From positions 1 through 20,948 of the IMG/VR virus record IMGVR_UViG_3300007734_000889: a stretch of 20,948 nt of DNA, one strand, 5' to 3'. Position 1 is the stretch's first letter. Each line of letters opens with the position of its first letter. Under the pieces are notes generated by a model that had not been told where the DNA came from, did not search any database, and was given only the letters and a program-made list of their open reading frames with translations. This stretch comes from a virus. Positions 3,881 to 20,948 of the stretch are shown in pieces. The translations under genes were made by a program, and so were the position numbers.

Positions 3881-4798
3881 ATGGAAAAATATACCAAGCA
3901 GCATTATTTAAATATAATAAAAAATAAATGTAATATAAATGATATAGATCTACATATAAGTAATAAATCTATGGAAACCAGAATTACTTTTAAATGTGAT
4001 AAACATGGAGAAAGTATTTGGAGATGGCAAAATGCTAAAAACAAAGATACTATAAATTGTAAAAAATGTTCTGAATTAGAAAGAAATTTAAAGTATTTTA
4101 ATATTGAATTATCAAATTTAAATTTTGAATTAATTACACCTGAATTATATTTAGGATCTAAATCTAAAATTTTAGTTAAATGTACCATTCATGGTGAAAT
4201 ATTTTTAAAAACAGATAGAAATACGCTTTTAAATAAATCTACTGTTTGTTCTTTATGTCAAAGAGATAAATATAAAGAAATATATAAAAATAAATTTATA
4301 GAAAAAGCAAAAATAATACATGATGATTTTTATTCATATGAAAATATTAATTACATAGATGTAATGTCTAAAATAGAAATTCCATGCCCCAAACATGGGG
4401 TATTTTTACAGACCCCAGATGCACATATTAGAGGACAAAAATGTCCTAAATGTGTTATTTCATATAAAGAAAACTACATAAAAGAAATTTTAGAAAAATA
4501 TAAATTTGAATATGTTTTTAATAAAGGACATAAACTTTTAATAAATCCAAAAACAAATTATCCTCTAAAACCAGATTTTTGGTTAGAAAAATATAATCTA
4601 GTTATAGAATATGATGGAATATCTCATTTTAAACAAATATATTCAAAAGAAGGATTTGAAAGAACACAAAAGTTAGATGTTTTAAAAAACAAATTATGTA
4701 AGAAGCATAAAATTAAAATTTGGAGATTTAATAAAAATAATTTATATTTATTAGAAAAAAAATTAATAAAATTATATGAAATCTACAACAACAAGTAA
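3881..4798 (+). CDS. Homing-type endonuclease: zinc knuckles plus Vsr-like PD-(D/E)xK nuclease
   Basis: The N-terminal two thirds hold three repeats of the form C-x2-HG then CxxC: Cys39/HG42/Cys60/Cys63, Cys101/HG104/Cys123/Cys126 and Cys169/HG172/Cys188/Cys191. These are probable zinc-binding DNA-recognition modules. The C-terminus (about 195-305) has a Vsr-like PD-(D/E)xK core: KPDFWLE (230-236), LVIEYDGISHF (240-250) and a late KIKIWRF strand. Such proteins are known as free-standing mobile endonucleases in phages and giant viruses. It interrupts the clamp-loader operon just before the gp62-like gene, and its last 23 bases overlap that gene's start, so coupling is maintained. Asp codons are almost all GAT, unlike the neighbours. 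The fold call is good; mobility is inferred. Confidence 0.82.
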   Translation: MEKYTKQHYLNIIKNKCNINDIDLHISNKSMETRITFKCDKHGESIWRWQNAKNKDTINCKKCSELERNLKYFNIELSNLNFELITPELYLGSKSKILVKCTIHGEIFLKTDRNTLLNKSTVCSLCQRDKYKEIYKNKFIEKAKIIHDDFYSYENINYIDVMSKIEIPCPKHGVFLQTPDAHIRGQKCPKCVISYKENYIKEILEKYKFEYVFNKGHKLLINPKTNYPLKPDFWLEKYNLVIEYDGISHFKQIYSKEGFERTQKLDVLKNKLCKKHKIKIWRFNKNNLYLLEKKLIKLYEIYNNK

Positions 4799-5588: not shown

Positions 5589-5987
5589 ATGGACATAGCA
5601 GTTGATTTTGATGGAACATGTGTAACACATGAATATCCTAAAGTAGGTGAAGACATAGGAGCAGTACCTGTGTTAAAAGCACTAGTGGAAAAAGGTCACA
5701 GACTAATGTTGTGGACTATGAGAGGTAATAAACCAACTTCAGAAGGAGTAAATACTTTACAAGACGCTGTTGATTGGTTTAAGAAGAATGATATACTACT
5801 TTGGGGTATAAATGAAAATCCTGAACAAAAGTCAAGTGGATGGACCAACAGTAACAAACAATATGCTCAATTATATATTGATGACACTGCATTAGGATGT
5901 CCATTAATGTATGATTGGGGAATTGAAAGACCATTTGTTAATTGGAGAGAAGTAGAAAAAATGTTAAAAGAAAAAGGTATACTATAA
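5589..5987 (+). CDS. HAD-superfamily hydrolase, BT0820-type
   Basis: This is a small cap-less HAD phosphohydrolase of 132 residues. Motif I is VDFDGT (5-10) with the nucleophile Asp6 and Asp8. Motif II is probably Thr43 in LMLWTMRG, and motif IV is the Asp pair in YIDDTALG (98-99). The family resembles the Bacteroides BT0820 hydrolase, a hint that the host is in the Bacteroidetes. It would act in the cytosol on a small phosphorylated substrate, possibly a nucleotide given its neighbours. The stop shares one base with the next start. Confidence 0.85.
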   Translation: MDIAVDFDGTCVTHEYPKVGEDIGAVPVLKALVEKGHRLMLWTMRGNKPTSEGVNTLQDAVDWFKKNDILLWGINENPEQKSSGWTNSNKQYAQLYIDDTALGCPLMYDWGIERPFVNWREVEKMLKEKGIL

Positions 5988-6940
5988 TGGCTAAAAACAA
6001 AATTCCTTCTATCATAAAGAAAATACAGGAGTACAAGCCAACAGCTGTTGACTATGCATTTCAAAAAAGCATATCTTACTCACAACTGTCAATGTATTTG
6101 TCTTGTCCTAAAAAGTGGTCTTTACAGTATAAGGAAGGACATAAAATACCTAGTTTTTCTATCAACATGACTTTTGGAACTGCAGTGCATGAAACACTGC
6201 AAAACTACTTGTCTGTGATGTACAATGAAAGTGGAGTAAAGGCAGATGCCATAAACATAGAAGAATACTTTGAAGAAAGATTTAGAGAAAACTATGCTAA
6301 AGGATATAAGGACAACAAGAATGTTCATTTCAGCAGTCCAAAAGAAATGAGAGAATTTTATGATGATGGTTTAGCCATATTAGACTTTATCAAGAAAAAA
6401 CGAAGTGAATATTTTAGTTTGAAAGATTGGCATTTAGTGGGAATTGAAATTCCCATTGTTATTGCGCCAAATAAAACACACAACAACGTTTTATTTAATG
6501 GATTTATCGACTTAGTATTGTATCATGAACCTACAAACAAATTCGTTATATACGACATAAAGACTAGTGGAAGAGGTTGGTCAGACAAGGAAAAGAAAGA
6601 CGAAGTCAAACAATTTCAAATATTGTTGTACAAGTCATATTTTAGTGAACAGTTTGGAGTAGACATTGAAAATATTGATGTTGAATTTTTTATTGTAAAA
6701 AGAAAAATATGGGAGGAATGTGAATTTCCTCAAAAACGTGTTCAACAGTTTGCACCTGCAAATGGCAAAACAAAAGTTAAAAAGTCTAAAGCAGCGTTGG
6801 ATACTTTTATAGAAGAAACATTTAATCTTGATGGTTCATATAAGACTGTAAGTCATCAAGCAACACCGTCAAAATGGGCCTGTGCTTACTGTCCTTACAA
6901 ATTAAATAAGGAGTTGTGCAATAAGGCAATTTTAAAATAG
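5987..6940 (+). CDS. PD-(D/E)XK nuclease, Cas4/RecB-like with probable Fe-S cluster
   Basis: This 317-residue nuclease has the RecB/Cas4 layout. YSQLSMYLSCPKKW (31-44) carries the first cluster cysteine, Cys40. GTAVHE (64-69) gives the family's His68. GFIDLV (172-177) supplies Asp175 and YDIKT (189-193) supplies Asp190 and Lys192. QILLY (211-215) is the QxxxY motif. Cys299, Cys302 and Cys311 near the C-terminus complete a C...CxxC...C set typical of Fe-S nucleases such as Cas4 and AddB. It probably processes DNA ends during replication or recombination, or degrades host DNA. I chose the start at 5987 (TAATG overlap with the HAD gene); an in-frame ATG at 5942 would add 15 residues inside that gene. 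Confidence 0.88.
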   Translation: MAKNKIPSIIKKIQEYKPTAVDYAFQKSISYSQLSMYLSCPKKWSLQYKEGHKIPSFSINMTFGTAVHETLQNYLSVMYNESGVKADAINIEEYFEERFRENYAKGYKDNKNVHFSSPKEMREFYDDGLAILDFIKKKRSEYFSLKDWHLVGIEIPIVIAPNKTHNNVLFNGFIDLVLYHEPTNKFVIYDIKTSGRGWSDKEKKDEVKQFQILLYKSYFSEQFGVDIENIDVEFFIVKRKIWEECEFPQKRVQQFAPANGKTKVKKSKAALDTFIEETFNLDGSYKTVSHQATPSKWACAYCPYKLNKELCNKAILK

Positions 6941-7999: not shown

Positions 8000-9445
8000 A
8001 TGAATTCAAGTTTTGCCTATTTACCTCGAAACGAGAGGAAGAAAATTATGTTAATATGTGATGACATAAGAGTCCATAGTGGAGTAGCAACAGTCGCTCG
8101 AGAAATGGTTCTTAACACAGCCCAACATTTTAACTGGATACAAGTTGCAGGAGCAATGAATCATCCAGATAAAGGAAAAAAATTAGACATTTCAGAAGAC
8201 ACAAATGTTAACACTAAATTAAAAGATTCATCAGTAATGATTTATCCAGTAGATGGATATGGAGATCCAAATTTAATTAAAAATTTAATCAACATTGAAA
8301 AACCAGACGCAATCTTTTTAATTACAGATCCAAGATATTTTATTTGGCTGTTTCAAATCGAAAATGAAATAAGAAAAAAAATACCTATTGTTTACTTAAA
8401 CATTTGGGACAATTATCCAGCTCCAATGTACAACAGACCATACTATGAAGCATGTGATGCTTTGTTAGGCATTTCTAAACAAACTGTTAACATCAACAAA
8501 TTGGTGTTAGGAAGTAAGGTTAAAAGTAAAATAATTGAGTATGTGCCTCATGGATTAAATGAAGAAATGTTTAGACCATTTACAGATGAAGACAAGAAAA
8601 ATGATGAGTACATTAAGTTGAAAAATGAAGTGTTTAAAGGAAAAGAATATGACTTTGTTTTGTTTTTCAACTCAAGAAACATTCGCAGAAAACAAATACC
8701 TGACACTTTATTAGCGTACAAGTACTTTATAGACAAGTTGCCAGAAGAAAAAGCAAAAAGATGTGCTTTCTTACTACACACTCAACCTATAGACGACAAC
8801 GGAACTGATTTAGTTACAGTAAGTGAATTTTTATTCAACAATGACAAAAAATACAACATACATTTTACCCGTGGAATGTTTAGTCCTCAACAAATGGGTT
8901 TGTTGTACAACATGACTGATTGTCAAATTCTACTAACATCAAATGAAGGTTGGGGACTGTCATTAACTGAAGCTATCTTGTCAGGAAATCCAATTATAGC
9001 AAATGTAACAGGTGGAATGCAAGATCAAATGCGTTTTGAAAATAATGGTAAATGGATGGAATTAGACGCTGATTTTCCTTCAAACCATAATGGCACTATA
9101 AAAGACTGTGGCGACTGGGCATTTCCAGTATTTCCATCAAATAGATCAATTCAGGGTTCTCCTGTTACTCCATACATTTGGGATGATAGATGCACAGCAG
9201 AAGATGCTGCTTTACAAATTGAACAAGTGTACATGTTAAGTAAAGAAGATCGTAAAGCTAAAGGATTAAAAGGCAGAGAATGGGCATTAAGTGATGAAGC
9301 AGGATTTACTGGAGAAAAAATGGGTAAACGAATTATAAAACACTTAGACACATTATTTTCAACTTGGGAACCTAGAAGCAATTTTGAATTAATTGACATA
9401 AAAAATGTTGAAAAAAGAGTTTTAAATCATAAATTAACATATTAG
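8000..9445 (+). CDS. GT-B glycosyltransferase (GT4-like)
   Basis: This 481-residue cytosolic glycosyltransferase has two Rossmann domains. The N-terminal domain (about 14-185) begins KKIMLICDDIRVHSGVATVA, with the acceptor-side Gly-rich turn. The C-terminal donor domain (about 215-460) contains FFNSRNIRRKQIPD (222-235) and the E-x7-E signature Glu316/Glu324 in NEGWGLSLTE, followed by GNPIIANVTGGMQDQM, the usual nucleotide-sugar contact region. A retaining mechanism is expected for the GT4 group. It lies just upstream of the lysozyme and of a second GT-B gene, ahead of the large glycan block, so it may share that pathway. Donor and acceptor are unknown. The start at 8000 has GTTATATG, as at the clamp-loader gene. 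Confidence 0.88.
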   Translation: MNSSFAYLPRNERKKIMLICDDIRVHSGVATVAREMVLNTAQHFNWIQVAGAMNHPDKGKKLDISEDTNVNTKLKDSSVMIYPVDGYGDPNLIKNLINIEKPDAIFLITDPRYFIWLFQIENEIRKKIPIVYLNIWDNYPAPMYNRPYYEACDALLGISKQTVNINKLVLGSKVKSKIIEYVPHGLNEEMFRPFTDEDKKNDEYIKLKNEVFKGKEYDFVLFFNSRNIRRKQIPDTLLAYKYFIDKLPEEKAKRCAFLLHTQPIDDNGTDLVTVSEFLFNNDKKYNIHFTRGMFSPQQMGLLYNMTDCQILLTSNEGWGLSLTEAILSGNPIIANVTGGMQDQMRFENNGKWMELDADFPSNHNGTIKDCGDWAFPVFPSNRSIQGSPVTPYIWDDRCTAEDAALQIEQVYMLSKEDRKAKGLKGREWALSDEAGFTGEKMGKRIIKHLDTLFSTWEPRSNFELIDIKNVEKRVLNHKLTY

Positions 9446-10070: not shown

Positions 10071-10601
10071 ATGAGTAAAAATAGTTGTGTAATTTACGCC
10101 CCAATAGATACTTTATCGGGGTATGGGTCTAGAGCTCGTGATACTGTAAAATCTATCATAGAACTAAAAAAAGACGAATGGGATATTAAACTAATTTCTT
10201 GCCCTTGGGGCAACACACCATCCGGTTTTATTAATGAAAATCCAGAATGGCATTTTTTAATTAAACACATGTTAACTCATCAGTTAAATTATCAACCAGA
10301 CATTTTTATTTGGATAACTATTCCACCAGAATTTCAAAAAGCAGGAAAATACAACATTGGCATAACAGCTGGTTTAGAAACAAACATCATTCCAGGAGAT
10401 TGGATTGAAGGAGTAAACAGAATGGACTTAGTATTAGTGTCGTCTGAACATTCTAAAAAAGCATTTCTCAATTCTAAATTTCAGAAAATAAATGATAAAA
10501 CAAAACAAGTTGAATCATTATTAGAAATTAAAACACCTGTAGAAGTCATATTTGAAGGAGTTTCAACTGAAGTATATCAACATATAGAATGGATTAATTA
10601 A
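10071..10601 (+). CDS. GT-B glycosyltransferase, N-terminal half of a split gene
   Basis: These 176 residues form only the acceptor-side Rossmann domain of a GT-B enzyme: SCVIYAPIDTLSGYGSRARD (5-24), a QPDIFIWITIPPEF segment, NIGITAGLETNIIPGDW, then LVLVSSEHSKKAF and VIFEGVSTEVY close to the end. The donor domain is missing and is encoded by the next gene at 10647, in the same reading frame after 45 bases holding two in-frame stops (TAA at 10599 and 10632). The two products together equal one normal GT4-like protein. Either they assemble as two subunits, or the gene has been inactivated. It starts 9 bases after the lysozyme. Confidence 0.75.
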   Translation: MSKNSCVIYAPIDTLSGYGSRARDTVKSIIELKKDEWDIKLISCPWGNTPSGFINENPEWHFLIKHMLTHQLNYQPDIFIWITIPPEFQKAGKYNIGITAGLETNIIPGDWIEGVNRMDLVLVSSEHSKKAFLNSKFQKINDKTKQVESLLEIKTPVEVIFEGVSTEVYQHIEWIN

Positions 10602-10646
10602 TGTATCTTTAATTTATCCTTACATATTAAATAAAAAATAAAATTT

Positions 10647-11441
10647 ATGAAACAAGTAAAAAAAACAGACAGTAAAATATACCAATCACTACAAAAGATT
10701 CCTGAGGGATTTTGTTATTTATTTTGTGGAATGTGGTTACAAGGAGATTTAGGTGAAGATAGAAAAAATGTAGGCTTGTTAGTTAAAGGATTTTTAGAAA
10801 CGTTTAAAAATAAAAAACACAAACCTGCTCTTCTTTTAAAAACATCAATGGTCGGACCATCTTACATAGACAGAGATGAAATTATAAAAAGAATTAATCA
10901 AATCAAAAGTACAGTTAATGGATATGATTTGCCTAACATATATTTGTTACATGGTGAATTTACAGACGGAGAGATGAATGAAATATACAATCATCCAAAA
11001 GTAAAAGCAATGGTTTCATTAACTAAAGGTGAAGGATTTGGAAGACCATTACTTGAATTTACCCAAAGTAAAAAACCAATTATAGCAACTAATTGGAGTG
11101 GTCACTTAGACTTTTTAAACCCAGAATTTACCGTTTTAATTAATGGAACTTTAACAAACGTCCATCCAAGTGCCGCTAATCAATATTTAATAAAAGAAGC
11201 ACAATGGTTTTCACCTGATGCTGGTCAAATAGGATATTGGTTAAAAGAAATGTATGAAAATTATAAAGATTACATTATTAAAGGTAAACGTCAAGGATTT
11301 TATTGTAAAACAAATTTCTCATTTGAAAAAATGACTGAGAAAATGGCTGAACATTTAAAAAGAATTCCTGAATTTCCAAAACAAATAGCACTTAAACTAC
11401 CTCAACTTAAAAAAATTGAATTACCAAAAAATATAAAATGA
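10647..11441 (+). CDS. GT-B glycosyltransferase, C-terminal half of a split gene
   Basis: This 264-residue protein is the nucleotide-sugar-binding half of a GT4-like enzyme: FCYLFCGMWLQGDLGEDRKN (22-41), ALLLKTSMVGP, IYLLHGEFTDGEMNEIYN, and the E-x7-E motif Glu129/Glu137 in KGEGFGRPLLEF, followed by KKPIIATNWSGHLDFL. The N-terminal domain is the preceding gene, in the same frame. It has its own plausible start (AAATTTATG), so separate translation and reassembly are possible. The motif region is intact, which argues against old decay. The TGA stop overlaps the next start (ATGA). A role with the GT-B gene at 8000 and the downstream glycan genes is inferred. Confidence 0.8.
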   Translation: MKQVKKTDSKIYQSLQKIPEGFCYLFCGMWLQGDLGEDRKNVGLLVKGFLETFKNKKHKPALLLKTSMVGPSYIDRDEIIKRINQIKSTVNGYDLPNIYLLHGEFTDGEMNEIYNHPKVKAMVSLTKGEGFGRPLLEFTQSKKPIIATNWSGHLDFLNPEFTVLINGTLTNVHPSAANQYLIKEAQWFSPDAGQIGYWLKEMYENYKDYIIKGKRQGFYCKTNFSFEKMTEKMAEHLKRIPEFPKQIALKLPQLKKIELPKNIK

Positions 11442-11899
11442 CAGACAACTTAATTATATGTCCTCACTGTGAAAGTGACGCATGCTATGTAACAGAAAAT
11501 TCTCCAACCGTTAAAACATACTCATGTTTTGGATGTGGATTTACAAGTAACTCTTTAATGAAAGAAGGAGAGGAATTTTACACTCAACAACTAGAAGTGT
11601 TACCTGAACTGTATAAAGATGTAGTGTTTAAAGATGAAGATGGTTTAATTTGGATGCCTACAACAGTAAACCTACCTCAAAACGGAATGGTGTTTTACAA
11701 CGGTACAAGTAAAGAAAATGCTAAATGGGCAGCAGTGAAAGCAGTAGAAGTAACAGAGGAAGAAAAAGAAAAGTACCCAATCAAAAATAAGCCAGGCGAA
11801 TTTTATCAGTGGAGAATGGACATGACAACTATGAAGCCTTTTGAAATGAAGGATTTTATGAGTGCTTTAGAATATATAAATGTATTTAACAACTTGTGA
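11438..11899 (+). CDS. Zinc-ribbon protein of unknown function
   Basis: Residues 1-40 form a zinc ribbon: CPHC (Cys8, Cys11) and CFGC (Cys30, Cys33) around a short loop (TVKTYS). The rest is an unrecognised acidic domain with several Trp residues (MVFYNGTSKENAKW, FYQWRMDMTTMKPFE), length 153 in all. Such small ribbon proteins in phages can bind nucleic acid or proteins, but no function is assignable. Its ATG lies in the stop of the glycosyltransferase before it. The stop falls inside a 12-base tandem repeat that marks the border with homing endonuclease 3. Confidence 0.75.
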   Translation: MTDNLIICPHCESDACYVTENSPTVKTYSCFGCGFTSNSLMKEGEEFYTQQLEVLPELYKDVVFKDEDGLIWMPTTVNLPQNGMVFYNGTSKENAKWAAVKAVEVTEEEKEKYPIKNKPGEFYQWRMDMTTMKPFEMKDFMSALEYINVFNNL

Positions 11900-11941: not shown

Positions 11942-12088
11942 ATGGGAAGAATTAAAAAATATCTAACACCTGAAGAAAAACAGGCAGCTAAGACTAGTGC
12001 TTCTAAAAAATATTATTGGAAAAATAAAGAACAAGAAGATGAAAAAGCAAAACAGCGGTACAATAAAAAAAGAATGTCAAACTTGTAA
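11942..12088 (+). pseudogene. N-terminal fragment of frameshifted homing endonuclease 3 (48 aa)
   Basis: The frame from the ATG at 11942 gives 48 residues: MGRIKKYLTPEEKQAAK, then SKKYYWKNKEQ and KAKQRYNKKR. To my recollection, this kind of basic helical leader occurs at the start of phage homing-endonuclease proteins. It ends at TAA 12086-12088, but at the seven-A run 12065-12071 removal of one A (a +1 shift) would join it to the frame encoding the zinc-finger and nuclease domains. So the gene is broken by a one-base indel, is read by ribosomal slippage, or contains a homopolymer sequencing error. A genuinely separate 48-residue peptide is less likely. Confidence 0.55.
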
Positions 12089-12728
12089 TGTAGGATTTAT
12101 TTCTTTTTTAAGTGATGAAAGAAAATTTTGTAGTAGAAAATGTTTTGAAAGAAGAAGAAAAAATTCTATATGTAAAGGATGTGGTATAGAATTTTATATT
12201 CCTGGAGAAACAAATATGAAATATCATGATAAAGAATGTTATCATAGAAATGGAAATAAAGGAACATTTAAAAAAGGACATAAAATAAATCAAAATAAAA
12301 CTCATTCTGAAGAGACTAAACAAAAAATAAGTAAAGCTCATTTTGGAAAGAAAATATCTGAAGAGACTAAAATAAAAATGTCTCAAACTGCTATAAAAAA
12401 TTCTCATAATCATAACACCCAGAAATATGGAAAATGGTCACCTAATTATAACATAATAGCTTGTAAAATTATAGAGGAATATGGAAAAAATAATGGATAC
12501 AGCTTTCAACATGCTTTAAATGGAGGAGAATTTCATATAAAAGAATTAGGATATTGGATAGATGGTTATGATAAAGAAAAAAATATAGTTATAGAATATT
12601 TAGAAAAATACCATTTAAATCCTAAACGAATAGAAAAAGATAAAAGAAGAAGAGAAGAAATTATTAAAATTTTGAAACCTAAATTTATTTTTATATATTT
12701 TGATAATAAAATAGAAATATGGGAATAG
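11997..12728 (+). CDS. Homing endonuclease 3 main frame: zinc fingers, NUMOD3, PD-(D/E)xK-like nuclease
   Basis: This frame is open from a GTG at 11997 (first ATG 12039), but the first 20 or so residues overlap the other-frame fragment and are low-complexity Lys/Asn, so authentic sequence probably begins near 12072. The domains in order are paired Cys clusters CQTC, CSRKC, CKGC and HDKEC (12075-12245), probable treble-clef zinc fingers; NUMOD3 repeats HSEETKQKISKAHFGKK and SEETKIKMSQ (about 12300-12390); and a nuclease-like C-terminus (GEFHIKELGYWIDGYDKEKN, IVIEYLEKYH). Relatives usually read IEYDEKHH, so the catalytic region may be degenerate. The last 10 bases overlap the GT2 gene at 12719. 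Codons are strongly A/T-ending. Confidence 0.72.
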   Translation: MLLKNIIGKIKNKKMKKQNSGTIKKECQTCNVGFISFLSDERKFCSRKCFERRRKNSICKGCGIEFYIPGETNMKYHDKECYHRNGNKGTFKKGHKINQNKTHSEETKQKISKAHFGKKISEETKIKMSQTAIKNSHNHNTQKYGKWSPNYNIIACKIIEEYGKNNGYSFQHALNGGEFHIKELGYWIDGYDKEKNIVIEYLEKYHLNPKRIEKDKRRREEIIKILKPKFIFIYFDNKIEIWE

Positions 12729-13345
12729 TTATATCATACGGGATTACAGTTTGTAATGAATTTACAGAAATTCAACATTTATTAGGTTTTCTACTTAATG
12801 TTAAACGTGAAGAAGATGAAATTGTTATTTTATATGATGAAGCTAATGGTGACTCTTCAATAGAAGAATATTTAAGAGCTAATTCAATTAATAAAGGATT
12901 TGTTTGGCATAAAGCTAAATTTGACAGACATTTTGCAAATTGGAAAAATAAATTAAACAGTTTGTGTAGTGGAGATTATATTTTTAACATAGATGCTGAT
13001 GAAATTCCACACTCACACTTAATTGAAAATCTACCATTTATTTTAGAAAATAATAAATCAGACATTCTTTTAGTCCCAAGAGTAAACACAGTTGAAGGAA
13101 TTACTGACCAACATGTTAAAATATGGGGTTGGAAGAAAAATGAAAAAGGATGGTTACAATGGCCAGATCATCAGTGGAGAATTTATAAAAATACTCCTGA
13201 AATTAAATGGATAAACAAACTACATGAAGTTTTAGATGGATATAAAAGTTATGCTTATTTGCCTGAGTTAGAAGAATATGCTTTATATCATCCAAAAAGC
13301 ATTCAAAAACAAGAAAAACAAAATGGCTATTATGCAACTTTATAA
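12719..13345 (+). CDS. GT2-type glycosyltransferase (GT-A fold)
   Basis: This 208-residue GT-A enzyme has an opening strand and Asn-Glu turn ISYGITVCNEFTEI (5-18), the DEIVILYDEANGD segment, then the DxD-type metal and nucleotide site NIDADEIPHSHL (90-101). WRIYKN and IKWINKLHE follow, a pattern seen in LPS-type GT2 enzymes. At about 210 residues it is short, but the core is complete. It is the first gene of the dense glycan block, its start overlaps the end of homing endonuclease 3 by 10 bases, and its end overlaps the FkbM gene. Its 5' two thirds use more C-ending codons than the genes that follow. Donor and acceptor are unknown. Confidence 0.82.
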   Translation: MGIVISYGITVCNEFTEIQHLLGFLLNVKREEDEIVILYDEANGDSSIEEYLRANSINKGFVWHKAKFDRHFANWKNKLNSLCSGDYIFNIDADEIPHSHLIENLPFILENNKSDILLVPRVNTVEGITDQHVKIWGWKKNEKGWLQWPDHQWRIYKNTPEIKWINKLHEVLDGYKSYAYLPELEEYALYHPKSIQKQEKQNGYYATL

Positions 13346-13952
13346 AATAACAAAACATTTCTATCCTGATAGAATATTGGATATAGGAGCTAATATAGGA
13401 CAATTCCATATATTGGCTAAAAATGAATTTCCATCAAGCTTTATTTTTTCAATTGAAGCTAGTAAAGAATGTGAAGTATTGTTAAAAACAATAACTGACA
13501 ATTATTATATAGGAATGTTAGCAAAAGATAACTCTGAATATAAATTTTACAAAACAAAAGAAAATCCAACAAGTACAGGAAATTCATTTTATAGAGAACT
13601 TACTCAATTTTATTCAGATGATAAATTAGATATTGTAAATGAAAAAGGAATCATGTTAGATGATTTATTTGAACAAGAATCTGAGTTTGATTTAATTAAA
13701 ATAGATACACAAGGTTCTGAATTAGATATTATTACTGGTGGTATTAATTTATGTAGTAAAGCTAAAGGAATATTATTGGAAGTATCATTAAATGAATATA
13801 ATGAAAATTCTCCTTTATATGATGAAGTAATAACGTACATGGAAAAAATAGGATTTAAATCTAAAGAAATATTAGACGAACAACATAATCATGGATCACA
13901 TCAACAAGATATACTTTTTATAAATGAAAAATTTAATAATAGGAGCAATTAG
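13323..13952 (+). CDS. FkbM-family SAM-dependent methyltransferase
   Basis: This is a class I methyltransferase of the FkbM type, most of which O-methylate sugars or natural products. It shows the SAM-binding motif ILDIGANIGQ (18-27 from the chosen start), FSIEAS (the acidic residue for the ribose) and the family's DLIKIDTQGSELDIITGG motif near the middle. The length of 209 residues is typical. I chose the ATG at 13323 (MAIMQLYK) because the extension to an ATG at 13278 is Lys/Asn-rich and lies wholly inside the preceding gene. It overlaps the previous stop by 23 bases and the next start by 29. It probably methylates the glycan made by the neighbouring transferases. Confidence 0.85.
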   Translation: MAIMQLYKITKHFYPDRILDIGANIGQFHILAKNEFPSSFIFSIEASKECEVLLKTITDNYYIGMLAKDNSEYKFYKTKENPTSTGNSFYRELTQFYSDDKLDIVNEKGIMLDDLFEQESEFDLIKIDTQGSELDIITGGINLCSKAKGILLEVSLNEYNENSPLYDEVITYMEKIGFKSKEILDEQHNHGSHQQDILFINEKFNNRSN

Positions 13953-14700
13953 TGGAAATTATTTTCCACAAGATTTAAAAAACTGGATAGAAACCTCAAA
14001 TTGGAACGACTGTGAACGAGTTTTATTACTCTATAATCCATCCAATAATGGAATAGAAGAATACCTAAAAGATCATAATATAAATGTTGTATATCCTAAT
14101 TTTGATTTTTGGGGTAATGAAAAAAGCCAATTTAATTTTGACACAGGAATTTGTGACTTTGCTACTTCATATGATTTAATCCATAATATTAGATTCTTTC
14201 ATATATGGAATTATTTACAAAATAACATATACAATAAAGTATTAATTACAGATGTACGTGATGTTTATTTTAACAGTAATCCATTTTCACATTTAGATTC
14301 TAATTTTTTAGTTGCTACAAGTGAAGAAATTATATATGAAAACGAAGAATGGAATAAAAATCATATACATTATAATTTAGGTATAGCAGGATTAGAAAAA
14401 CTCTCAGACAAACCAGTATATAACGTAGGTGTATTTGGAGGAGGACATGAATTAGTAAAAGAAATGTGTATCGATATATACTTAATGTCAGTAGGAAAAT
14501 ATAAAGTAGCAGATCAAACATCATATAATTATTTGATTCAAACTAAATATAAAGATAAAACAATTTTTACAGATCTGAAAGATAAATTAGCAGTTCATTT
14601 ACATGTTATAAATGCCGGTTTAATTGAATTTGATATAAATAATATAAACGAATATAAAATCATCCATCAATATGATCGAATCCCAGGATATAAAATATAG
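13924..14700 (+). CDS. Putative glycosyltransferase with DxxD motif
   Basis: This 258-residue protein looks like a GT-A nucleotide-diphospho-sugar transferase: an N-terminal strand MKNLIIGAISGNY, a VLLLYNP strand, and KVLITDVRDVYFNSNPF (105-121), in which Asp110 and Asp113 occupy the metal-binding position. It then continues NFLVATSEE and VYNVGVFGGGHELVKEM, the acceptor-side pattern seen in stand-alone transferases of this kind. It resembles eukaryote-type nucleotide-sugar transferases more than classic bacterial GT2 proteins. It overlaps both neighbours by 29 bases. The fold is likely; the sugar is not predictable. Confidence 0.7.
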   Translation: MKNLIIGAISGNYFPQDLKNWIETSNWNDCERVLLLYNPSNNGIEEYLKDHNINVVYPNFDFWGNEKSQFNFDTGICDFATSYDLIHNIRFFHIWNYLQNNIYNKVLITDVRDVYFNSNPFSHLDSNFLVATSEEIIYENEEWNKNHIHYNLGIAGLEKLSDKPVYNVGVFGGGHELVKEMCIDIYLMSVGKYKVADQTSYNYLIQTKYKDKTIFTDLKDKLAVHLHVINAGLIEFDINNINEYKIIHQYDRIPGYKI

Positions 14701-15394
14701 TATTATAATTTCTTATAGAGATAGAGAAGAACATTTATCTATTTTATTACCACAATTAAAAGATATTTTTCTTAATAAATCTTATGAAATAATAATCGCA
14801 GAACAAGATAATAATGAAAAATTTCAAAAAAATTCACTATATAATATAGCCGCTCAAAAAGCAACAGGAGATATTTTTATTTTTCATGATGTAGATTATT
14901 ATCCAAGTGATAATGTTTCATATTATACTACACCAGATATTCCTTTATACCCTGTAAGAAATTTAATTTTTCTAAATCAAGAAGGATCTCAAAGAGATTT
15001 TGATGATATTCCTGAAGGTTATAGAAACTTTCATCAAAATGTAGGAGATCATTCAGGTGGGGTATTTGTATTACATCGAGAATTATTTTACGAGATGAAT
15101 GGATTAAATCCATATTATAAAGGATGGGGTAAAGAAGATGACGATACTAGAGATAGATTAAGATTATTAGGATACAATTGGAAAAGAAATGAAGAAGGTT
15201 TATTTTATGGATTATATCACATTCATAACTACCCTGAGCATGGTGATACTGATTTTATTAATAATCATATTCTTCTATCTCAATTAAAAAACAATTTACA
15301 TTTAGGTTATAAAAATGTAAGTGCTGATTTAAAAGAGTTTAAAACAGATGATAATATTAAATGGTTAAAAATTAAAAACTTTAAATATGAATAA
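14672..15394 (+). CDS. GT7-like galactosyltransferase (beta-1,4-galactosyltransferase-like fold)
   Basis: The motifs match glycosyltransferase family 7 from end to end: ISYRDREEHLSILLPQL (13-29), IIAEQDN (41-47), a LYNIA helix, the metal site IFHDVDYYP (70-78), HSGGVFVLHRELFYEMNG (127-144), and GWGKEDDDTRDRL (151-163). In animal beta-1,4-galactosyltransferases these are the YRxR, EQ, FHDVD, GGV and GWGxEDDD motifs that bind Mn2+, UDP-sugar and acceptor. Here the protein is 240 residues, cytosolic, with no membrane anchor. It probably adds galactose or an N-acetylhexosamine to the phage-directed glycan. It overlaps the previous gene by 29 bases and the next by 8. There is no other ATG near the front, so the start is well supported. 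Confidence 0.85.
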   Translation: MIESQDIKYSIIISYRDREEHLSILLPQLKDIFLNKSYEIIIAEQDNNEKFQKNSLYNIAAQKATGDIFIFHDVDYYPSDNVSYYTTPDIPLYPVRNLIFLNQEGSQRDFDDIPEGYRNFHQNVGDHSGGVFVLHRELFYEMNGLNPYYKGWGKEDDDTRDRLRLLGYNWKRNEEGLFYGLYHIHNYPEHGDTDFINNHILLSQLKNNLHLGYKNVSADLKEFKTDDNIKWLKIKNFKYE

Positions 15395-16064
15395 ATTAGA
15401 AACATTATTTAACAAATACAAATCCGATAAAGGAACAGAAATAGGTCCTAAACATTCATATGCTGGTTTCTATGAAAAATACTTGGAACCAATTAAAGAT
15501 GATAAACTATTAATTCTAGAAATAGGATTATGTGATGGTAAATCACTTAAAACATGGTATGAATATTTACCTAATAGTATTATCATTGGATTAGATATTG
15601 ATGATAAACTAGAACATAATAATGATAGAGTTTTTACTTTTAAATTAGATCAATCTAAATCTGATCAGTTAGAAAGTTTTGTTAAAGAATGTAAAGATAA
15701 AGGATATGAATTTGATATGATATTAGATGATGGAAGTCACCACATGTTAGATCAGCAAATTACCTTAGGATATTTATTTCCACTTTTAAAATCTGGTGGA
15801 TTATTCTTTATAGAAGATTTACATACTTCTTTAGCGGATAATGATTTTCCTCTTTATGGAAAAGCACTAGATATACAAGAAAATAGAAAAAATACAACTT
15901 TATACTATCTAATGGAATCATTTAATAGTTTATATCTTACCCAAAATCAAAACTACTATCTACAACAAAATATTGATTATATTGAAATTCACAATAAATT
16001 TAATAAATATCAAGAACCTCAATTCAAATATAGAAGTATTACTTCATTGATAAAGAAAAAATGA
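15387..16064 (+). CDS. SAM-dependent methyltransferase, MycE-like
   Basis: This 225-residue class I methyltransferase shows YKSDKGTEIGPKHSY (11-25), LEIGLCDGKSLKTWYEYLP (44-62, SAM motif I), IIGLDID (66-72), FDMILDDGSHHMLDQQ (109-124) and GGLFFIEDLHTS (137-148). The combination DDGSH plus EDLHTS is typical of the mycinamicin-type sugar 2''-O-methyltransferases, which use a metal ion. The likely target is a deoxy- or amino-sugar in the glycan built by neighbouring enzymes. It overlaps the next gene by four bases (ATGA). Confidence 0.82.
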   Translation: MNKLETLFNKYKSDKGTEIGPKHSYAGFYEKYLEPIKDDKLLILEIGLCDGKSLKTWYEYLPNSIIIGLDIDDKLEHNNDRVFTFKLDQSKSDQLESFVKECKDKGYEFDMILDDGSHHMLDQQITLGYLFPLLKSGGLFFIEDLHTSLADNDFPLYGKALDIQENRKNTTLYYLMESFNSLYLTQNQNYYLQQNIDYIEIHNKFNKYQEPQFKYRSITSLIKKK

Positions 16065-17413
16065 TTAAGTTAATTATATTTGATTTAGATGGAGTTTTGG
16101 TTGAAGCCAAAAATATTCATTTTGATGCTTTAAATGAAGCTTTAGGACCTAAATATTCTATAGAATGGAATGAACATTTAAGTAAATATGATGGGTTAAA
16201 AACAAATCAAAAACTTGAAATGTTAACTAAAGAAAAAGGATTACCAACAGAATTATATAAACAAGTTTGGGATGAAAAACAACGTTTAACATTAAAAAAG
16301 TTAAGTGATTTACTCCCTTCAACTCAATTACAAGTTTGTATTAATTTATTAGTTAATAATGGATATAAAATAGCTTGCTGTAGTAATAGTATTCGTAAAA
16401 CAGTAATAACAGTGTTATCTAAATTAGGTATCATTGAACATTTTGATTTAATTTTATCTAATGAGGATGTTAAAAATAGTAAACCACACCCAGAAATATA
16501 TTGGAAGGCTATTTCAATGATGGGTTATTTACCTGAAGAAACATTAATAATTGAAGATTCTCCATTTGGATTATTAGCAGCAAGTAGATCAAAATCTCAT
16601 GTAATGAGAGTTGGATCCCCTAAAGATGTCACGTATAATAATATTTATAAACACTTAAACAATCAAATAAGTATGATTCCTAAATGGAAAAATGAAAAAT
16701 TAAATGTACTAATTCCTATGGCGGGAGCAGGAAGTAGATTTGAGAATGCTGGATATGCATTTCCAAAACCTTTAATTGAAGTCAATGGTAAACCAATGAT
16801 TCAAGTTGTAATTGAAAATCTAAACATAGACGCTAATTACATTTATGTAGTTCAAAAATCACATCGTGAAAAATATAATTTAGACGCTTTACTCAACTTA
16901 CTAACTCCAGGATGTAAAATTGTTGAATCAGATGGATTAACTAAAGGAGCAGCATGTACAGCATTATTAGCTAAAGATTATATTAATAATGACAATCCTT
17001 TATTCTTTGCAAATTCTGATCAGTTTATAGAATGGGATTCAAATGAATTTATGTATAAGATGCAAGAAACAGATGCTGATGGAGGAATTGTTTCTTTTAC
17101 AGCTACACACCCAAAATGGTCATTTGCTAAAGTAGACGAAAATGGTTTAGTAACTGAAGTAGCAGAAAAAAATCCTATATCTGACATTGCAACTGTAGGT
17201 TATTATTATTGGAAACATGGTTCTGATTTTGTTAAATATGCAGAACAAATGATTAAAAAAGACATTCATGTAAATAATGAATTTTATGTTTGCCCTGTAT
17301 TTAATCAAGCTATTGAAGATAGAAAGAAAATTAGAACATTTAATGTTGCTAAAATGTGGGGACTAGGAACTCCAGAAGACTTAAACTTTTACTTATTAAA
17401 CTATAAATCATGA
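16061..17413 (+). CDS. Bifunctional HAD phosphatase / sugar-1-phosphate nucleotidyltransferase
   Basis: Two enzymes are fused in 450 residues. The N-terminal HAD domain (1-205) is of the beta-phosphoglucomutase type: FDLDGVLVE (7-15; Asp8, Asp10), CCSNS (106-110, Ser108), NSKPHPEIY (139-147, Lys141) and IIEDSPFG (163-170, Asp166). The C-terminal domain (about 213-450) is an NTP-transferase: IPMAGAGSRF (218-227), FPKPLIEVNGKPMIQ (234-248), an NSDQ metal site (318-321), NNEFYVCP and WGLGTPEDL near the end. It would remove or move a sugar phosphate and then form an NDP-sugar, the donor for the transferases around it. The start and stop overlap both neighbours by four bases (ATGA). Confidence 0.9.
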   Translation: MIKLIIFDLDGVLVEAKNIHFDALNEALGPKYSIEWNEHLSKYDGLKTNQKLEMLTKEKGLPTELYKQVWDEKQRLTLKKLSDLLPSTQLQVCINLLVNNGYKIACCSNSIRKTVITVLSKLGIIEHFDLILSNEDVKNSKPHPEIYWKAISMMGYLPEETLIIEDSPFGLLAASRSKSHVMRVGSPKDVTYNNIYKHLNNQISMIPKWKNEKLNVLIPMAGAGSRFENAGYAFPKPLIEVNGKPMIQVVIENLNIDANYIYVVQKSHREKYNLDALLNLLTPGCKIVESDGLTKGAACTALLAKDYINNDNPLFFANSDQFIEWDSNEFMYKMQETDADGGIVSFTATHPKWSFAKVDENGLVTEVAEKNPISDIATVGYYYWKHGSDFVKYAEQMIKKDIHVNNEFYVCPVFNQAIEDRKKIRTFNVAKMWGLGTPEDLNFYLLNYKS

Positions 17414-18108
17414 TAAATATAAACAATTTAGAAACTTCCCAAACATCACAAGCTATTTTTGATAATTTTAACTCTTTTATATTAAGTGAAGATAGACGAG
17501 TTTTTAATAAATTAGTAGCAAGAACATTAATTTATAATCAGGTAAAAAACATTCCAGGAGATATTGTTGAATGTGGAATATTTAAAGGAACAGGATTATA
17601 TACTTTCTTAAAATTAAAAAATGTTTTTAATCCTAACAGTTCAAAAAAAGTAATTGGTTTTGATTTCTTTGATACAGATAGTTTAATATCTTCAATAGAA
17701 GAAGGAATCGATAAAGAAGCAATGGGAGCATTATTTGAAGGTAGAAATTTTAAACATGATGAGTCATCAGTAGATGTATTATATAATCAACTTATATCAC
17801 ATGGTTTTCAAAAATCTGAATTTGAATTGATTCAAGGAGACATATCAATAACTAGTAAACATTTTTCTGAAAACAATCCTGGATTTAAAATATCTTTATT
17901 GTATATGGATTTAGATTTAGAACAACCAACATATGATACTTTAAATAATTTATGGGACAATGTAACAAAAGGAGGTATTATTGTATTTGATGAGTATGGT
18001 TATCATAAATGGAGTGAATCTCGAGGAGTTGATAAATTCATAGAGGAGAAAAACTTACAAATAAGATCATTAGATTATTCATGTCCCACAGCTTATATAG
18101 TAAAGTAA
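17410..18108 (+). CDS. TylF/MycF-family O-methyltransferase
   Basis: This 232-residue class I methyltransferase is close to the macrocin O-methyltransferase (TylF/MycF) group, enzymes that methylate hydroxyls of antibiotic sugars with a divalent metal. Motifs are PGDIVECGIFKGTG (49-62), VIGFDFFD (81-88), LLYMDLDLEQPTYDTL (163-178) with the metal-binding Asp residues, GGIIVFDEYG (188-197) and the WSESRGVDKF segment (201-210) found in the family. It starts inside the previous stop and is followed with no gap by the next gene. With MycE-like and FkbM genes nearby, this block has three sugar-methylating candidates. Confidence 0.88.
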   Translation: MININNLETSQTSQAIFDNFNSFILSEDRRVFNKLVARTLIYNQVKNIPGDIVECGIFKGTGLYTFLKLKNVFNPNSSKKVIGFDFFDTDSLISSIEEGIDKEAMGALFEGRNFKHDESSVDVLYNQLISHGFQKSEFELIQGDISITSKHFSENNPGFKISLLYMDLDLEQPTYDTLNNLWDNVTKGGIIVFDEYGYHKWSESRGVDKFIEEKNLQIRSLDYSCPTAYIVK

Positions 18109-18801
18109 ATGAGAGTAGCATTATGTTTATCAGGACAAGCTAGATTTTTAGAAACATGTTACTATGAATCTATGAAATCCAATATAATAGATGATTTAAA
18201 CCCTGATGTGTTTATCCATACTTGGGATATATCAAACATGGTAGATCAACATTTTATAAATGGAAATGGATGGGTAATGGGAGATAAAATATCACATGAT
18301 TTAATGGAGACTATGGTTAGTTTATATAAACCAAAAAAACATGTTATTGAGCCTCAAAAATATTTTGAACAAAATAAATGGAGTAATAGGTTAATGCCTA
18401 GTATTAAAAGTGATCACATGTATAGTATGTTTTATTCAATTAATGAATCTAATAAACTTAAAAAACAATATGAAGAAGAAAATAACTTTATATATGATTG
18501 GGTTATTCGAATTAGATTTGACATGGCTATTCCTAGCGGACCTCTAAATTTAAGTAGTCTAACTAATGATCATTTATGGGTAGCCACAGGATGTTTTGAT
18601 AACAGAGGTGGTTATTTAGATTCATTAGGTTATTCAAGCTCTCAAATAATGGATATCTACTCAGATACATTTAATCATGTAGATGAAATTGCTGATGAAA
18701 ATCCAACTATGGGAATATGTGGAGAATATATTTTACGAAAACATATAGATAAAAATAATATTCCAGTAATGGAAAACGGAACTCATAAAGCATATAGATG
18801 A
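18109..18801 (+). CDS. Putative glycosyltransferase-like protein with SGQAR motif
   Basis: This 230-residue protein begins with a strand MRVALCLSGQAR (1-12) and continues with PDVFIHTWD (32-40), SMFYSINESNKLKK and WVIRIRFDMAIP (131-142), where the Asp after Arg-Phe occupies the place of a DxD site. Proteins with an SGQxR start plus DVFIHTW occur in polysaccharide and viral glycan clusters and are presumed GT-A transferases, but I know of no characterised activity that applies. It follows the TylF-like gene without a gap and overlaps the next by four bases. Confidence 0.62.
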   Translation: MRVALCLSGQARFLETCYYESMKSNIIDDLNPDVFIHTWDISNMVDQHFINGNGWVMGDKISHDLMETMVSLYKPKKHVIEPQKYFEQNKWSNRLMPSIKSDHMYSMFYSINESNKLKKQYEEENNFIYDWVIRIRFDMAIPSGPLNLSSLTNDHLWVATGCFDNRGGYLDSLGYSSSQIMDIYSDTFNHVDEIADENPTMGICGEYILRKHIDKNNIPVMENGTHKAYR

Positions 18802-19250
18802 TATTAATAGCTCATAGAGGTAATATTAATGGTAGATTTGAATCATTAGAAAATGAACCAACATATATTGATTTAGCTATTGAAAAAGGTTATGATGTAG
18901 AAATTGATATATGGTATAAAGATAATACCATATGGTTAGGACATGATGAACCTATTTATCCAATTGATATTTTTTGGTTGTTTAAAAGAAAATCAAAATT
19001 ATGGATTCATTGTAAAAATGTTGAAGCAATTGTATTTTTACAAGAATGTAAATGTAAATTTAATTATTTTTGGCATCAAGAAGATACATTAACTTTAACT
19101 AGTCAAAATTATATTTGGGCTTACCCTGGTAAACAACCAATTAAAAATAGTATAGCTGTAATGCCTGAATTAAATAATGATGATATATCTAAATGTTTAG
19201 GAATTTGTAGTGATTATATAGAAAAATACAAAAATGAAAATAATTTATAG
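18798..19250 (+). CDS. Short GDPD-like (PI-PLC TIM-barrel) phosphodiesterase
   Basis: The start ILIAHRGNINGRFESLENEP (2-21) is the glycerophosphodiester phosphodiesterase HRG...EN signature with His6 and Arg7. VEIDIW (34-39) gives the metal-binding Glu35/Asp37, and LGHDEP (47-52) gives the second catalytic His49. LWIHCKN, FNYFWHQED and YIWAYPGK follow. At 150 residues it is far below the usual 230-300, yet all the front active-site motifs are intact, so it seems a compact form rather than a decayed one. It could cleave or transfer a phosphodiester on the glycan (glycerol-phosphate or teichoic-like linkage) or on host lipid. It overlaps the neighbours by 4 and 17 bases. Confidence 0.75.
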   Translation: MILIAHRGNINGRFESLENEPTYIDLAIEKGYDVEIDIWYKDNTIWLGHDEPIYPIDIFWLFKRKSKLWIHCKNVEAIVFLQECKCKFNYFWHQEDTLTLTSQNYIWAYPGKQPIKNSIAVMPELNNDDISKCLGICSDYIEKYKNENNL

Positions 19251-19962
19251 AATCTCAGACACTGGATACAACAAAGTAAAGCCAGACTACATTACAAACG
19301 AATCTTGCTTAAAAAACTTCTGCAGTGTATTTTTTGAAAACATTTGGGACATTCATGTTATAGCAGACAACGTCTGTCAACAAACAAGAGACATGATTTG
19401 TAAGTACATAGACAAATCTCAAATCACTTATGCTTCAGTAGGACATGGAGCAGGAACATTCAACTTAGCTTTAGACATGGCTTTGAAAGGAAAAGACGAT
19501 GAAATAGTTTATTTTGTAGAAAACGATTACATTCATCTACCTAACTCAGCTCAAATAATAGAAGAAGGATTTAACTTAGGAGCACCATATGTAACTTTAT
19601 ATCTTCATCCAGATAAATTTATTCCTCCATTCCAAGGAGGAAACCCAGAAGTAGATCAAGATGGAGGATACACAACTAAAATATTTAGAGGCGAAACTCA
19701 ATTATTTGGAATGTTCAACAGCACAACTATGACTTTCGCTGCTAAAGTAAAAACATTAAAAGAAGACGAAGCAACATTAAGAAAATGGACAAATGGAAAG
19801 CACCCAGATGACTTTAAAATGTTTCTTGAGTTGAGAGACAATGGAAAAGCATTGTTGTGTCCTTTAAACACATTTAGTACTCATGGAGAGTCAATGTGGC
19901 TTGCTCCTTTATATAAAGTAAAACAAGAAAATTTAGTTGAAGAATGGAAAAAACACCTCTAA
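19234..19962 (+). CDS. Putative GT-A glycosyltransferase
   Basis: This 242-residue protein opens IIYRISDTGYNKVKPDYI (3-20), then IHVIADN (40-46), a Gly-rich helix start SVGHGAGTFNLALDMAL (68-84), and IVYFVENDYIHLP (91-103), whose Glu-Asn-Asp takes the place of the GT2 metal site. The later HPDDFKMFLEL and STHGESMW fit an acceptor domain. I recognise it as a phage glycosyltransferase-like type with no known substrate. Codon use shifts sharply here: GAC and AAC reappear at high frequency after the A/T-ending block, so this gene belongs with the resident phage set. Its start overlaps the GDPD-like stop by 17 bases. Confidence 0.68.
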   Translation: MKIIYRISDTGYNKVKPDYITNESCLKNFCSVFFENIWDIHVIADNVCQQTRDMICKYIDKSQITYASVGHGAGTFNLALDMALKGKDDEIVYFVENDYIHLPNSAQIIEEGFNLGAPYVTLYLHPDKFIPPFQGGNPEVDQDGGYTTKIFRGETQLFGMFNSTTMTFAAKVKTLKEDEATLRKWTNGKHPDDFKMFLELRDNGKALLCPLNTFSTHGESMWLAPLYKVKQENLVEEWKKHL

Positions 19963-20714
19963 TATCAGTAATCATCCCCACCTACAAAAGTCCAGACACC
20001 TTAGACTTATGTCTTAAATCAGCAATTGAAGGACAAGTCAGTGAAAATCAAATTATAGTTGTTGTAGATGGTTTTTACGATGTCAACAAAGAAGTGTTGG
20101 AAAAATACGTTAAATCAATTGATATATTAACTTTAGAAGAAAATGTAGGCCTTTGTCGAGGCACTAATTTAGGCGTTTATAATGCGTCTAATGAGTTGAT
20201 TTTAATAGTAAATGATGACAATGTATTTCCACAAAACTGGGACTTGTCTTTATTAGAATCTTATCAACCAAACTCAGTTGTATCTCCAAACCAAATAGAA
20301 CCCACACCAAGTATGTTTTCTCAATTTGTAATTGAGGATTTAGGAAGAGATCCTAAAATATTTGATTTAGAGAAATTTTGGATGTTTGATTACCATGTTG
20401 CCTCAGGTAATAAAGTAGATGAAACAGGATCTACATTACCTATCTTTATGTCTAAAATAGACTATTTAAGAGTAGGTGGTTGGGACGAAAACTATCAAGA
20501 TGGAATGGTAGCAGATTGGGACTTTTTTCTCAAATGTAGATCATCTGGGATGAAAATGCTTAGAACATACGAATGTCACTTTTATCACTTTGCTTCTATA
20601 TCTGTAAACGGAGAAAAAAGAGCACAAGCCGAGATGAATGGTCACGAATATGCTAAGTACAAGTGGGGATGTTACATAAAACACAACCCAATAAATAATT
20701 TAAAGTTTCTATAA
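19944..20714 (+). CDS. GT2-family glycosyltransferase
   Basis: This is a classic inverting GT-A enzyme of family 2, 256 residues. It shows LISVIIPTYKSPDTLDLCLKS with the nucleotide-binding start (6-26), IIVVVDG (37-43), ENVGLCRGTNLGVYNAS (66-82), the metal site LIVNDDNVFP (87-96), and the acceptor signature GGWDENYQDGMVADWDFFLK (178-197), with Asp191 in the catalytic-base region. A C-terminal extension (CHFYHFASISV) follows. It is the last transferase of the block and overlaps the previous gene by 19 bases. Its C-ending codon use matches that gene. Substrate unknown. Confidence 0.9.
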   Translation: MEKTPLISVIIPTYKSPDTLDLCLKSAIEGQVSENQIIVVVDGFYDVNKEVLEKYVKSIDILTLEENVGLCRGTNLGVYNASNELILIVNDDNVFPQNWDLSLLESYQPNSVVSPNQIEPTPSMFSQFVIEDLGRDPKIFDLEKFWMFDYHVASGNKVDETGSTLPIFMSKIDYLRVGGWDENYQDGMVADWDFFLKCRSSGMKMLRTYECHFYHFASISVNGEKRAQAEMNGHEYAKYKWGCYIKHNPINNLKFL

Positions 20715-20719
20715 AAAAC

Positions 20720-20748
20720 TTGGCTTTTAAAATATTTATTCATATATT
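20720..20748 (+). promoter_or_regulatory. Candidate promoter TTGGCT-N17-TATATT
   Basis: TTGGCT (20720-20725) and TATATT (20743-20748) lie 17 bases apart in the gap after the glycan block. Both elements and the following TTAAA match the site at 471. The next start codon is at 20765. A new transcription unit may begin here, separate from the glycosyltransferases. Confidence 0.42.
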
Positions 20749-20764
20749 TAAAAAAATAAAGATT

Positions 20765-20947
20765 ATGCTAAAATATAATAGTTACTTTTACTACTCTATA
20801 AATGATGTAAAATGTGAATGTATTGACAAAGTATTAGCTTATAATTATGAAGGCGCTTTACATTACTTTTTAAAAAGAAAAAAATTAGATGAACTTGAAT
20901 TTTTACACTTATATAAAATAGTAAAAGATGAAAATGAATTTAAATAA
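20765..20947 (+). CDS. Small unknown protein (60 aa)
   Basis: This unrecognised 60-residue protein is rich in Tyr, Lys and Leu and ends one base before the window edge. It is mainly helical by composition (VLAYNYEGALHYFLKRKKLDELEFLHLYKIV); the RKKLDELEFLHLYKI part resembles a small helical repeat found in some phage proteins, but I cannot name it. I take the ATG at 20765, preceded by AAAGATTATG, over an in-frame TTG at 20720 that would add 15 hydrophobic/basic residues. A candidate promoter lies directly upstream. Confidence 0.65.
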   Translation: MLKYNSYFYYSINDVKCECIDKVLAYNYEGALHYFLKRKKLDELEFLHLYKIVKDENEFK

Positions 20948-20948
20948 T

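Follow-up and report, generated by a model that had tools for sequence, protein, structure and literature searches.

Gene content of the block

The virus record IMGVR_UViG_3300007734_000889, a stretch of 20,948 bases analysed here as a whole (the window), contains eleven plus-strand open reading frames (ORFs), lettered A–K, that occupy positions 12719-20714 and each abut or overlap the next. They encode six likely glycosyltransferases, three methyltransferases, a fusion of a HAD domain with a nucleotidyltransferase (F), and a compact enzyme of the GDPD fold (I). The genes of the block are as follows.

12719-13345, plus strand: A, GT2 glycosyltransferase, first gene of the block and part of the framework (PF00535, E=6e-8; in 25/25 framework loci)
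13323-13952 (probable start; first ATG at 13278), plus strand: B, FkbM methyltransferase (PF05050, E=2e-14; TIGR01444 above cut-off)
13924-14700, plus strand: C, glycosyltransferase (phrog_1579, E=8e-9)
14672-15394, plus strand: D, GT7, beta-1,4-galactosyltransferase-like (PF13733, E=3e-15; PF02709, E=9e-11; DVD and WGKEDDD motifs)
15387-16064, plus strand: E, sugar O-methyltransferase, TylE/MycE-like (PDB 8ia9, E=3e-19; 3ssm, E=2e-13)
16061-17413, plus strand: F, HAD domain (beta-phosphoglucomutase-like) fused to a nucleotidyltransferase (PF13419, E=6e-28; PF00483, E=5e-12; the model resembles 4evw and beta-phosphoglucomutase)
17410-18108, plus strand: G, TylF-type O-methyltransferase (PF05711, E=1e-11)
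18109-18801, plus strand: H, DUF7796, putative glycosyltransferase (PF25072, E=1e-8; role from context)
18798-19250, plus strand: I, compact GDPD-fold enzyme, the partner of F (AF2 model, pLDDT 95; Z 10.9 to 1o1z over 141 residues; conserved GDPD catalytic motifs)
19234-19962, plus strand: J, probable GT2-type glycosyltransferase (PF00535 in 2/9 family members, best E=8e-4; weak match to a PDB glycosyl transferase, E=0.03)
19944-20714, plus strand: K, GT2 glycosyltransferase, last gene of the block (PF00535, E=1e-16)

Families were assigned by Pfam for A, B, D, F, G, H, and K and by PHROGs for C and E. Both Pfam GT7 domains of D scored above cut-off (56.5 and 41.7 bits), and E matched in the PDB the demethylmacrocin O-methyltransferase TylE and, at a higher E-value, MycE. 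J is probably a GT2-type glycosyltransferase, as judged from these matches, and profile comparison revealed no relation of J to C or D. The glycosyltransferase role of H is putative and derives from its gene context, its single PDB match being weak and irrelevant. An earlier sequence-only reading had recognized a glycan block at this place, and nearly all of its family calls (GT2, GT7, FkbM, TylF, MycE-like, HAD/nucleotidyltransferase, and GDPD-like) match our family searches, but its count of ten genes falls one short. Its upper limit of 29 bases for the overlaps is exactly that of the B/C and C/D pairs, but A and B may overlap by 68 bases if B starts from its first ATG, or by 23 bases if it starts at 13323.

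A PADLOC scan of ten block proteins, A–J, gave no match to defence or anti-defence systems. The T4 late promoter TATAAATA was observed 10 times against 7.2 expected, and scans for sigma-70 promoters and terminators performed no better than on shuffled sequence.

Recurrence and selection

Contig L172, found in a scan seeded with E, carries A–K complete, in the same order and in the same slot, at 54–91% amino-acid identity to the window. The ratios of nonsynonymous to synonymous substitution rates (dN/dS) between the two range from 0.07 to 0.55 and are below 1 for all eleven genes, although these pairwise values are approximate, as some synonymous distances are high. The gene set is therefore not a product of chance, and all eleven genes are under purifying selection. 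Contig L020 contains A–H as far as its end, and several other contigs hold subsets. The sequence-only reading knew of no match to the gene set among phage pathways. As regards gene content this no longer holds: the ordered set is present in L172, A–H in L020, and partial versions in isolated Synechococcus phages. A literature search yielded no experimental characterization of the A–K cluster.

A conserved slot with exchangeable modules

The block fills the variable part of a slot whose framework order is exonuclease, GT4, GT4, zinc-ribbon ORF, and gene A. The slot sits in the replication region, adjoining clamp-loader genes, and its landmarks upstream of A are listed below.

5942-6940, plus strand: PD-(D/E)XK-type exonuclease, which marks the slot on its left (phrog_69, E=8e-22; same position in Flavobacterium phage immuto and in 23/25 GT4a-seeded loci)
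8000-9445, plus strand: GT4 glycosyltransferase (GT4a), framework gene 1 (PF00534, E=1e-6; 54% identity to immuto gp181)
10071-10601, plus strand: N-terminal part of GT4b, a split gene (halves separated in the window by two in-frame stops; frame uninterrupted in L172)
10647-11441, plus strand: C-terminal part of GT4b (PF00534, E=1e-7)
11438-11899, plus strand: zinc-ribbon ORF, framework gene 3 (present in 25/25 GT4a-seeded loci)

In a sample of 25 non-redundant contigs seeded with GT4a and having enough downstream sequence, the framework from the two GT4 genes to A was found in every contig, with J or K in some. Neither F nor I was present in any of these 25 loci, hence the F module is the less common choice for the slot. 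Contigs L175 and L176 have the order A-B-C-D-E-J-K; F-G-H-I is gone, and the matches to E and J lie at most 10 bases apart. As E is directly followed by J in these two contigs, F-G-H-I acts as a unit that is either present or absent. The order in L192 is A-B-C-D-F-H-I-J-K, and Microcystis phage Mel-JY01 combines a related framework with J/K-like genes. This module exchange and the pairing of F with I are the most original elements of the locus; neither was part of the sequence-only reading, which also missed the slot.

The capsid gene of a relative and the GT4 of the window are both nearest to Flavobacterium phage immuto. The phage belongs to a T4-like aquatic group with vB_FspM_immuto (Immutovirus) as the nearest isolate. 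A cyanophage host is unlikely for the group, as psbA was found in none of 20 long relatives.

Several other features were observed in and around the slot. Three likely homing endonucleases are encoded in the window (1904-2638, 3881-4798, and 11997-12728), one of them between clamp-loader genes and one directly 5' of gene A. The ORF at 5589-5987 encodes a small HAD-like protein that falls under phrog_1238, whose label, phosphoheptose isomerase, is doubtful from the sequence. Contig L002 is identical to the window over 12744-20948 and adds about 4.5 kb past it; no further glycan genes were seen in this extension beyond K. Downstream of the block (L002, 10194-12720), five small ORFs have a common N-terminal peptide of the MKxSELRQLIREEI type, a possible targeting signal, e.g., a prohead-entry sequence.

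Linkage of F and I

Relatives of F were collected from viral contigs (the best 80 of 297 candidates) and from bacterial and archaeal genomes (159). Of 83 viral loci (the 80 F-seeded loci and three isolates), 72 have I close to F, 33 of them at a distance of at most 50 bases, and some of the viral loci without I end at a contig edge. Among bacterial loci, I is near F in 47/78, at most 50 bases away in 42, and a divergent I-like ORF was observed in six more. In loci selected for neither gene, with the window and duplicates excluded, both genes were found in three, neither in 34, and one alone in none (Fisher p about 1e-4 for these 37 loci, if they are independent). Among the matches listed in 50,697 phage records, the same 16 records carry I and the nucleotidyltransferase domain of F at an identity of at least 35%, although these represent about seven lineages and not 16 independent events.

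Of 80 contigs seeded with I, 57 contain the F fusion, 15 a nucleotidyltransferase of that family encoded on its own, and eight neither. The constant core is the nucleotidyltransferase together with I, and the supply genes vary: a cupin and a RuBisCO-like protein in L335 and L336; a split transketolase, a HAD protein, and a PfkB kinase in L302; and genes annotated as transketolase, kinase, aldolase, and phosphoheptose isomerase in cyanophage S-SM2. In nine Legionella-type loci (including L096-L102, L129, and L163), LicD (E=4e-43) is encoded immediately upstream of F and I is absent; no locus contains both LicD and I. Homologues of F and I are found in genomes of SAR11, SAR86, Prochlorococcus, and Methylophilaceae, and the SAR11 loci adjoin WavE-like lipopolysaccharide (LPS) genes. 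No study of the F–I enzyme pair, of the cassette, or of its modular layout was found in the literature.

The RuBisCO-like proteins are encoded at 4079-5323 of L335 (PF00016, E=1e-41) and at 4757-5989 of L336 (E=9e-33), next to the cupin, the F-family nucleotidyltransferase, and I. ORFs of similar length occupy this position in L305, L307, L316, L322, L331, and L334. A literature search for RuBisCO-like proteins in phages gave no obvious precedent.

Enzymes F and I

Across 26 homologues of the HAD half of F, D8 and D10, which correspond to the nucleophile and acid/base aspartates of beta-phosphoglucomutase, are invariant, as are the cap/hinge residues H20 and K73 (aligned to K76). The arginine that contacts the distal phosphate in beta-phosphoglucomutase (R49) has no counterpart, and residue 16 (T16) is A, S, or T. 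With a score of 87.8 bits against the 189.4-bit cut-off of the NCBIfam equivalog TIGR01990, and with R49 missing, F is not classed as a beta-phosphoglucomutase. Since the aspartates, H20, and the K76 equivalent are retained but R49 is not, both a phosphatase and a mutase are possible for this half. A further match of this half, also seen with the predicted structure, is the mannitol-1-phosphate phosphatase domain of MtlD. A heptose route of the GmhB/HddC type was discarded, the HAD domain being of another subclass as judged from family matches.

The second half of F scores 46.4 bits against PF00483 (gathering threshold 21.2), and both the GxGxRF...PKP motif residues of NTP_transferase and the metal-site D320 are invariant or nearly so among the homologues. 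In the predicted model, this half is structurally nearest to NDP-sugar pyrophosphorylases (4evw, RmlA). A functional lead for the reaction of F is offered by the CDP-glucitol enzymes of Campylobacter, described as a cytidylyltransferase plus an oxidoreductase with no mention of a HAD partner (PMC10918830).

I consists of 150 residues, and its predicted structure aligns with the GDPD 1o1z over nearly its full length (root-mean-square deviation 3.2). Many GDPD entries score at Z 8.5–10.9, and other barrels at 6 to 6.5. H6, R7, E35, D37, G48, and H49 are kept in 99–100% of 119 sequences, G8 in 94%, and D50 in 98%; the retained motifs are HRG, ExD, GHD, HxKN, and a final GICSD. As a single sequence, I has no GDPD match in Pfam at E up to 1, and its PHROG is functionless. 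From motifs and the structure model, I is assigned as a compact GDPD-fold barrel, not a fragment.

Proposed function and acceptor

We propose that the block is an allelic form of a highly variable glycan cassette, which acts in the cytoplasm and most likely glycosylates a virion protein; we place the probability of this reading at roughly one half. It builds on the observed gene content, order, and selection, on module swapping, on the F–I linkage, and on the lack of membrane proteins, from which we infer the reactions, their order of action, the virion as acceptor, and the benefit. The HAD half of F would strip or move a phosphate, and its second half would add a nucleotide to give an activated sugar or polyol donor. 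I, as a predicted phosphodiesterase, may act within this pathway on a phosphodiester. The glycosyltransferases would then build a short glycan, which B, E, and G would methylate, all steps taking place in the cytoplasm and most likely on virion proteins, so that phages of the group would differ in "serotype". The pathway offered by the sequence-only reading (activated sugar, glycan assembly, methylation) fits the gene content, with a CDP-polyol as an alternative donor.

By a simple hydropathy count, no block protein has a predicted transmembrane segment, and ORFs with at least four such segments number 0/729 among viral neighbours versus 62/676 in bacterial loci. With no phage flippase or polymerase among these neighbours, a cytoplasmic acceptor is favoured over an exported polymer. 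A virion protein is then left as the most likely acceptor, a choice also guided by the analogy of mycobacteriophages that encode their own glycosyltransferases, for which glycans on subunits of the capsid and the tail tube are reported (cited in PMC12619734). The sequence-only reading had left three targets side by side, namely the capsid, the phage DNA, and the host surface; of these, an independently exported surface polymer is now less likely in view of the missing polytopic proteins, and T4-type glucosylation of DNA is less likely given the absence of ThyA-family genes from most of the long relatives, as described below.

Several points weigh against the virion proposal. Phages carry few membrane proteins anyway, and both host lipid-linked intermediates and host export are compatible with the counts above. 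The glycan, sugar, and acceptor are predicted here from genes, and a search for an experimentally characterized close homologue of F found none. The break in GT4b (10071-11441), intact in L172, is either real or a sequence error and may alter part of the pathway. Finally, the likely host, a member of Bacteroidota, is deduced from the capsid gene of a relative.

A stronger form of the proposal combines a widespread phage "serotype" slot swapping whole glycan modules, a methylated virion glycan specific to each strain, and an undescribed pair of a nucleotidyltransferase and a mini-GDPD that makes or handles an unusual phosphodiester-linked donor; in this full form it is doubtful.

One alternative concerns the product of F and I. 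The nucleotidyltransferase half of F could make a CDP-polyol or CDP-linked phospho-alcohol, with I (LicD in Legionella) transferring or trimming a phosphodiester to give a phosphoglycan. LicD belongs to a family that uses CDP-activated donors and replaces I upstream of F in the nine Legionella-type loci; the GDPD active site is kept in I, and the HAD half of F resembles a polyol phosphatase domain, that of MtlD. The structural proximity of the second half of F to NDP-sugar pyrophosphorylases speaks against this reading, as does the relative of this half in S-SM2, which lies among genes annotated as heptose-pathway enzymes. We hold the phosphoglycan tentatively, as something less than an even chance, and it fits any of the three targets, so that its standing is not exclusive of the other readings.

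The cassette could also alter the host surface (LPS O-chain or capsule) against superinfection, by editing lipid-linked intermediates of the host and using host export. The bacterial homologues of F and I listed above, with WavE-like LPS genes or LicD adjoining, are in line with such a role, and O-chain modification is argued for pelagimyophage glycosyltransferase genes in PMC7029224. We nevertheless regard it as rather unlikely: no flippase, polymerase, or carrier-lipid transferase was seen in the phage cassettes, none of the 729 viral ORFs is polytopic, and, as a general argument, lytic infection leaves little time for giving the cell a new coat.

Attachment of the glycan to modified phage DNA bases against restriction, an elaborated version of T4 DNA glucosylation, appears improbable. 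The hydroxymethylase of T4-type DNA glucosylation derives from the ThyA family. A gene of this family (thymidylate synthase/hydroxymethylase) is absent from 8 of 12 long relatives, mostly of 150–190 kb, and present in four; the latter may encode either ThyA or a hydroxymethylase, the genome of the window itself is incomplete, and a modified base could be made by another enzyme. None of the scanned block proteins matched the DNA glucosyltransferase families of T4, and a methylated glycan of several sugars would be an uncommon decoration for DNA. In favour of DNA are the position of the slot in the replication region beside clamp-loader genes and the well-known phage glycosyltransferases that glycosylate DNA (PMC12838424, PMC13216743).

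That the genes are passing cargo, i.e., transient host sugar genes that do not work together, would agree with the highly variable content among relatives, but is very improbable in view of dN/dS below 1 in all eleven genes, the recurrence of the ordered set, the overlapping reading frames, and the non-random F–I linkage.

Should the virion be the target, these aquatic phages would diversify the chemistry of their surface by exchanging modules, much as bacteria do with O-antigens, which would bear on how they use receptors, how hosts and grazers recognize them, and how phages are classified. The F–I pair, which SAR11 and further marine bacteria also carry, is a target for enzymology, and its product would show which sugar or polyol is activated.

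Comparison with known systems

Compared with bacterial surface loci, the block lacks the flippase, polymerase, and initiating transferase of a Wzx/Wzy locus, according to the transmembrane scan and Pfam. It likewise lacks the polytopic flippase and the membrane-bound transferase that accompany a GT2 enzyme in GtrABC O-antigen conversion, according to the transmembrane scan. In the cytidylyl pathways of LicC/LicD and PntC (PMC6697681), a nucleotidyltransferase similarly activates a phospho-compound for surface glycans, but F has an additional HAD domain in the same protein and, in most loci, a GDPD-fold enzyme as its partner; the comparison is one of function.

Among phages, glycosylation of the mycobacteriophage virion has been demonstrated by experiment (cited in PMC12619734), whereas the cassette of the window is known from genes alone. 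Pelagimyophages resemble the present group as T4-like aquatic phages with variable glycosyltransferase cargo and a proposed change of the host surface, but their region lies near the tail-fibre module and is rich in GT8, and the passages of PMC7029224 that were consulted do not mention an F–I pairing. The Synechococcus myoviruses S-CAM9, S-PRM1, DSL-LC03, and B23 (Kyanoviridae) encode the F fusion at 55–60% and I at 48–51% identity among abutting glycosyltransferase genes. Their islands differ in having GT11 and epimerases, a different setting, and no full A–K, and psbA is present in S-CAM9 and DSL-LC03; the island genes are annotated, and no studies of them were found in the literature. The slot of vB_FspM_immuto has the same order of nuclease, GT4, GT4, small ORF, and GT2, but its interior holds aminotransferases, an epimerase, and other transferases, with no F or I. 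Set beside these systems, the A–K block is a real and selected gene set, ordinary in kind as a phage glycan-modification island and unusual in its organization.

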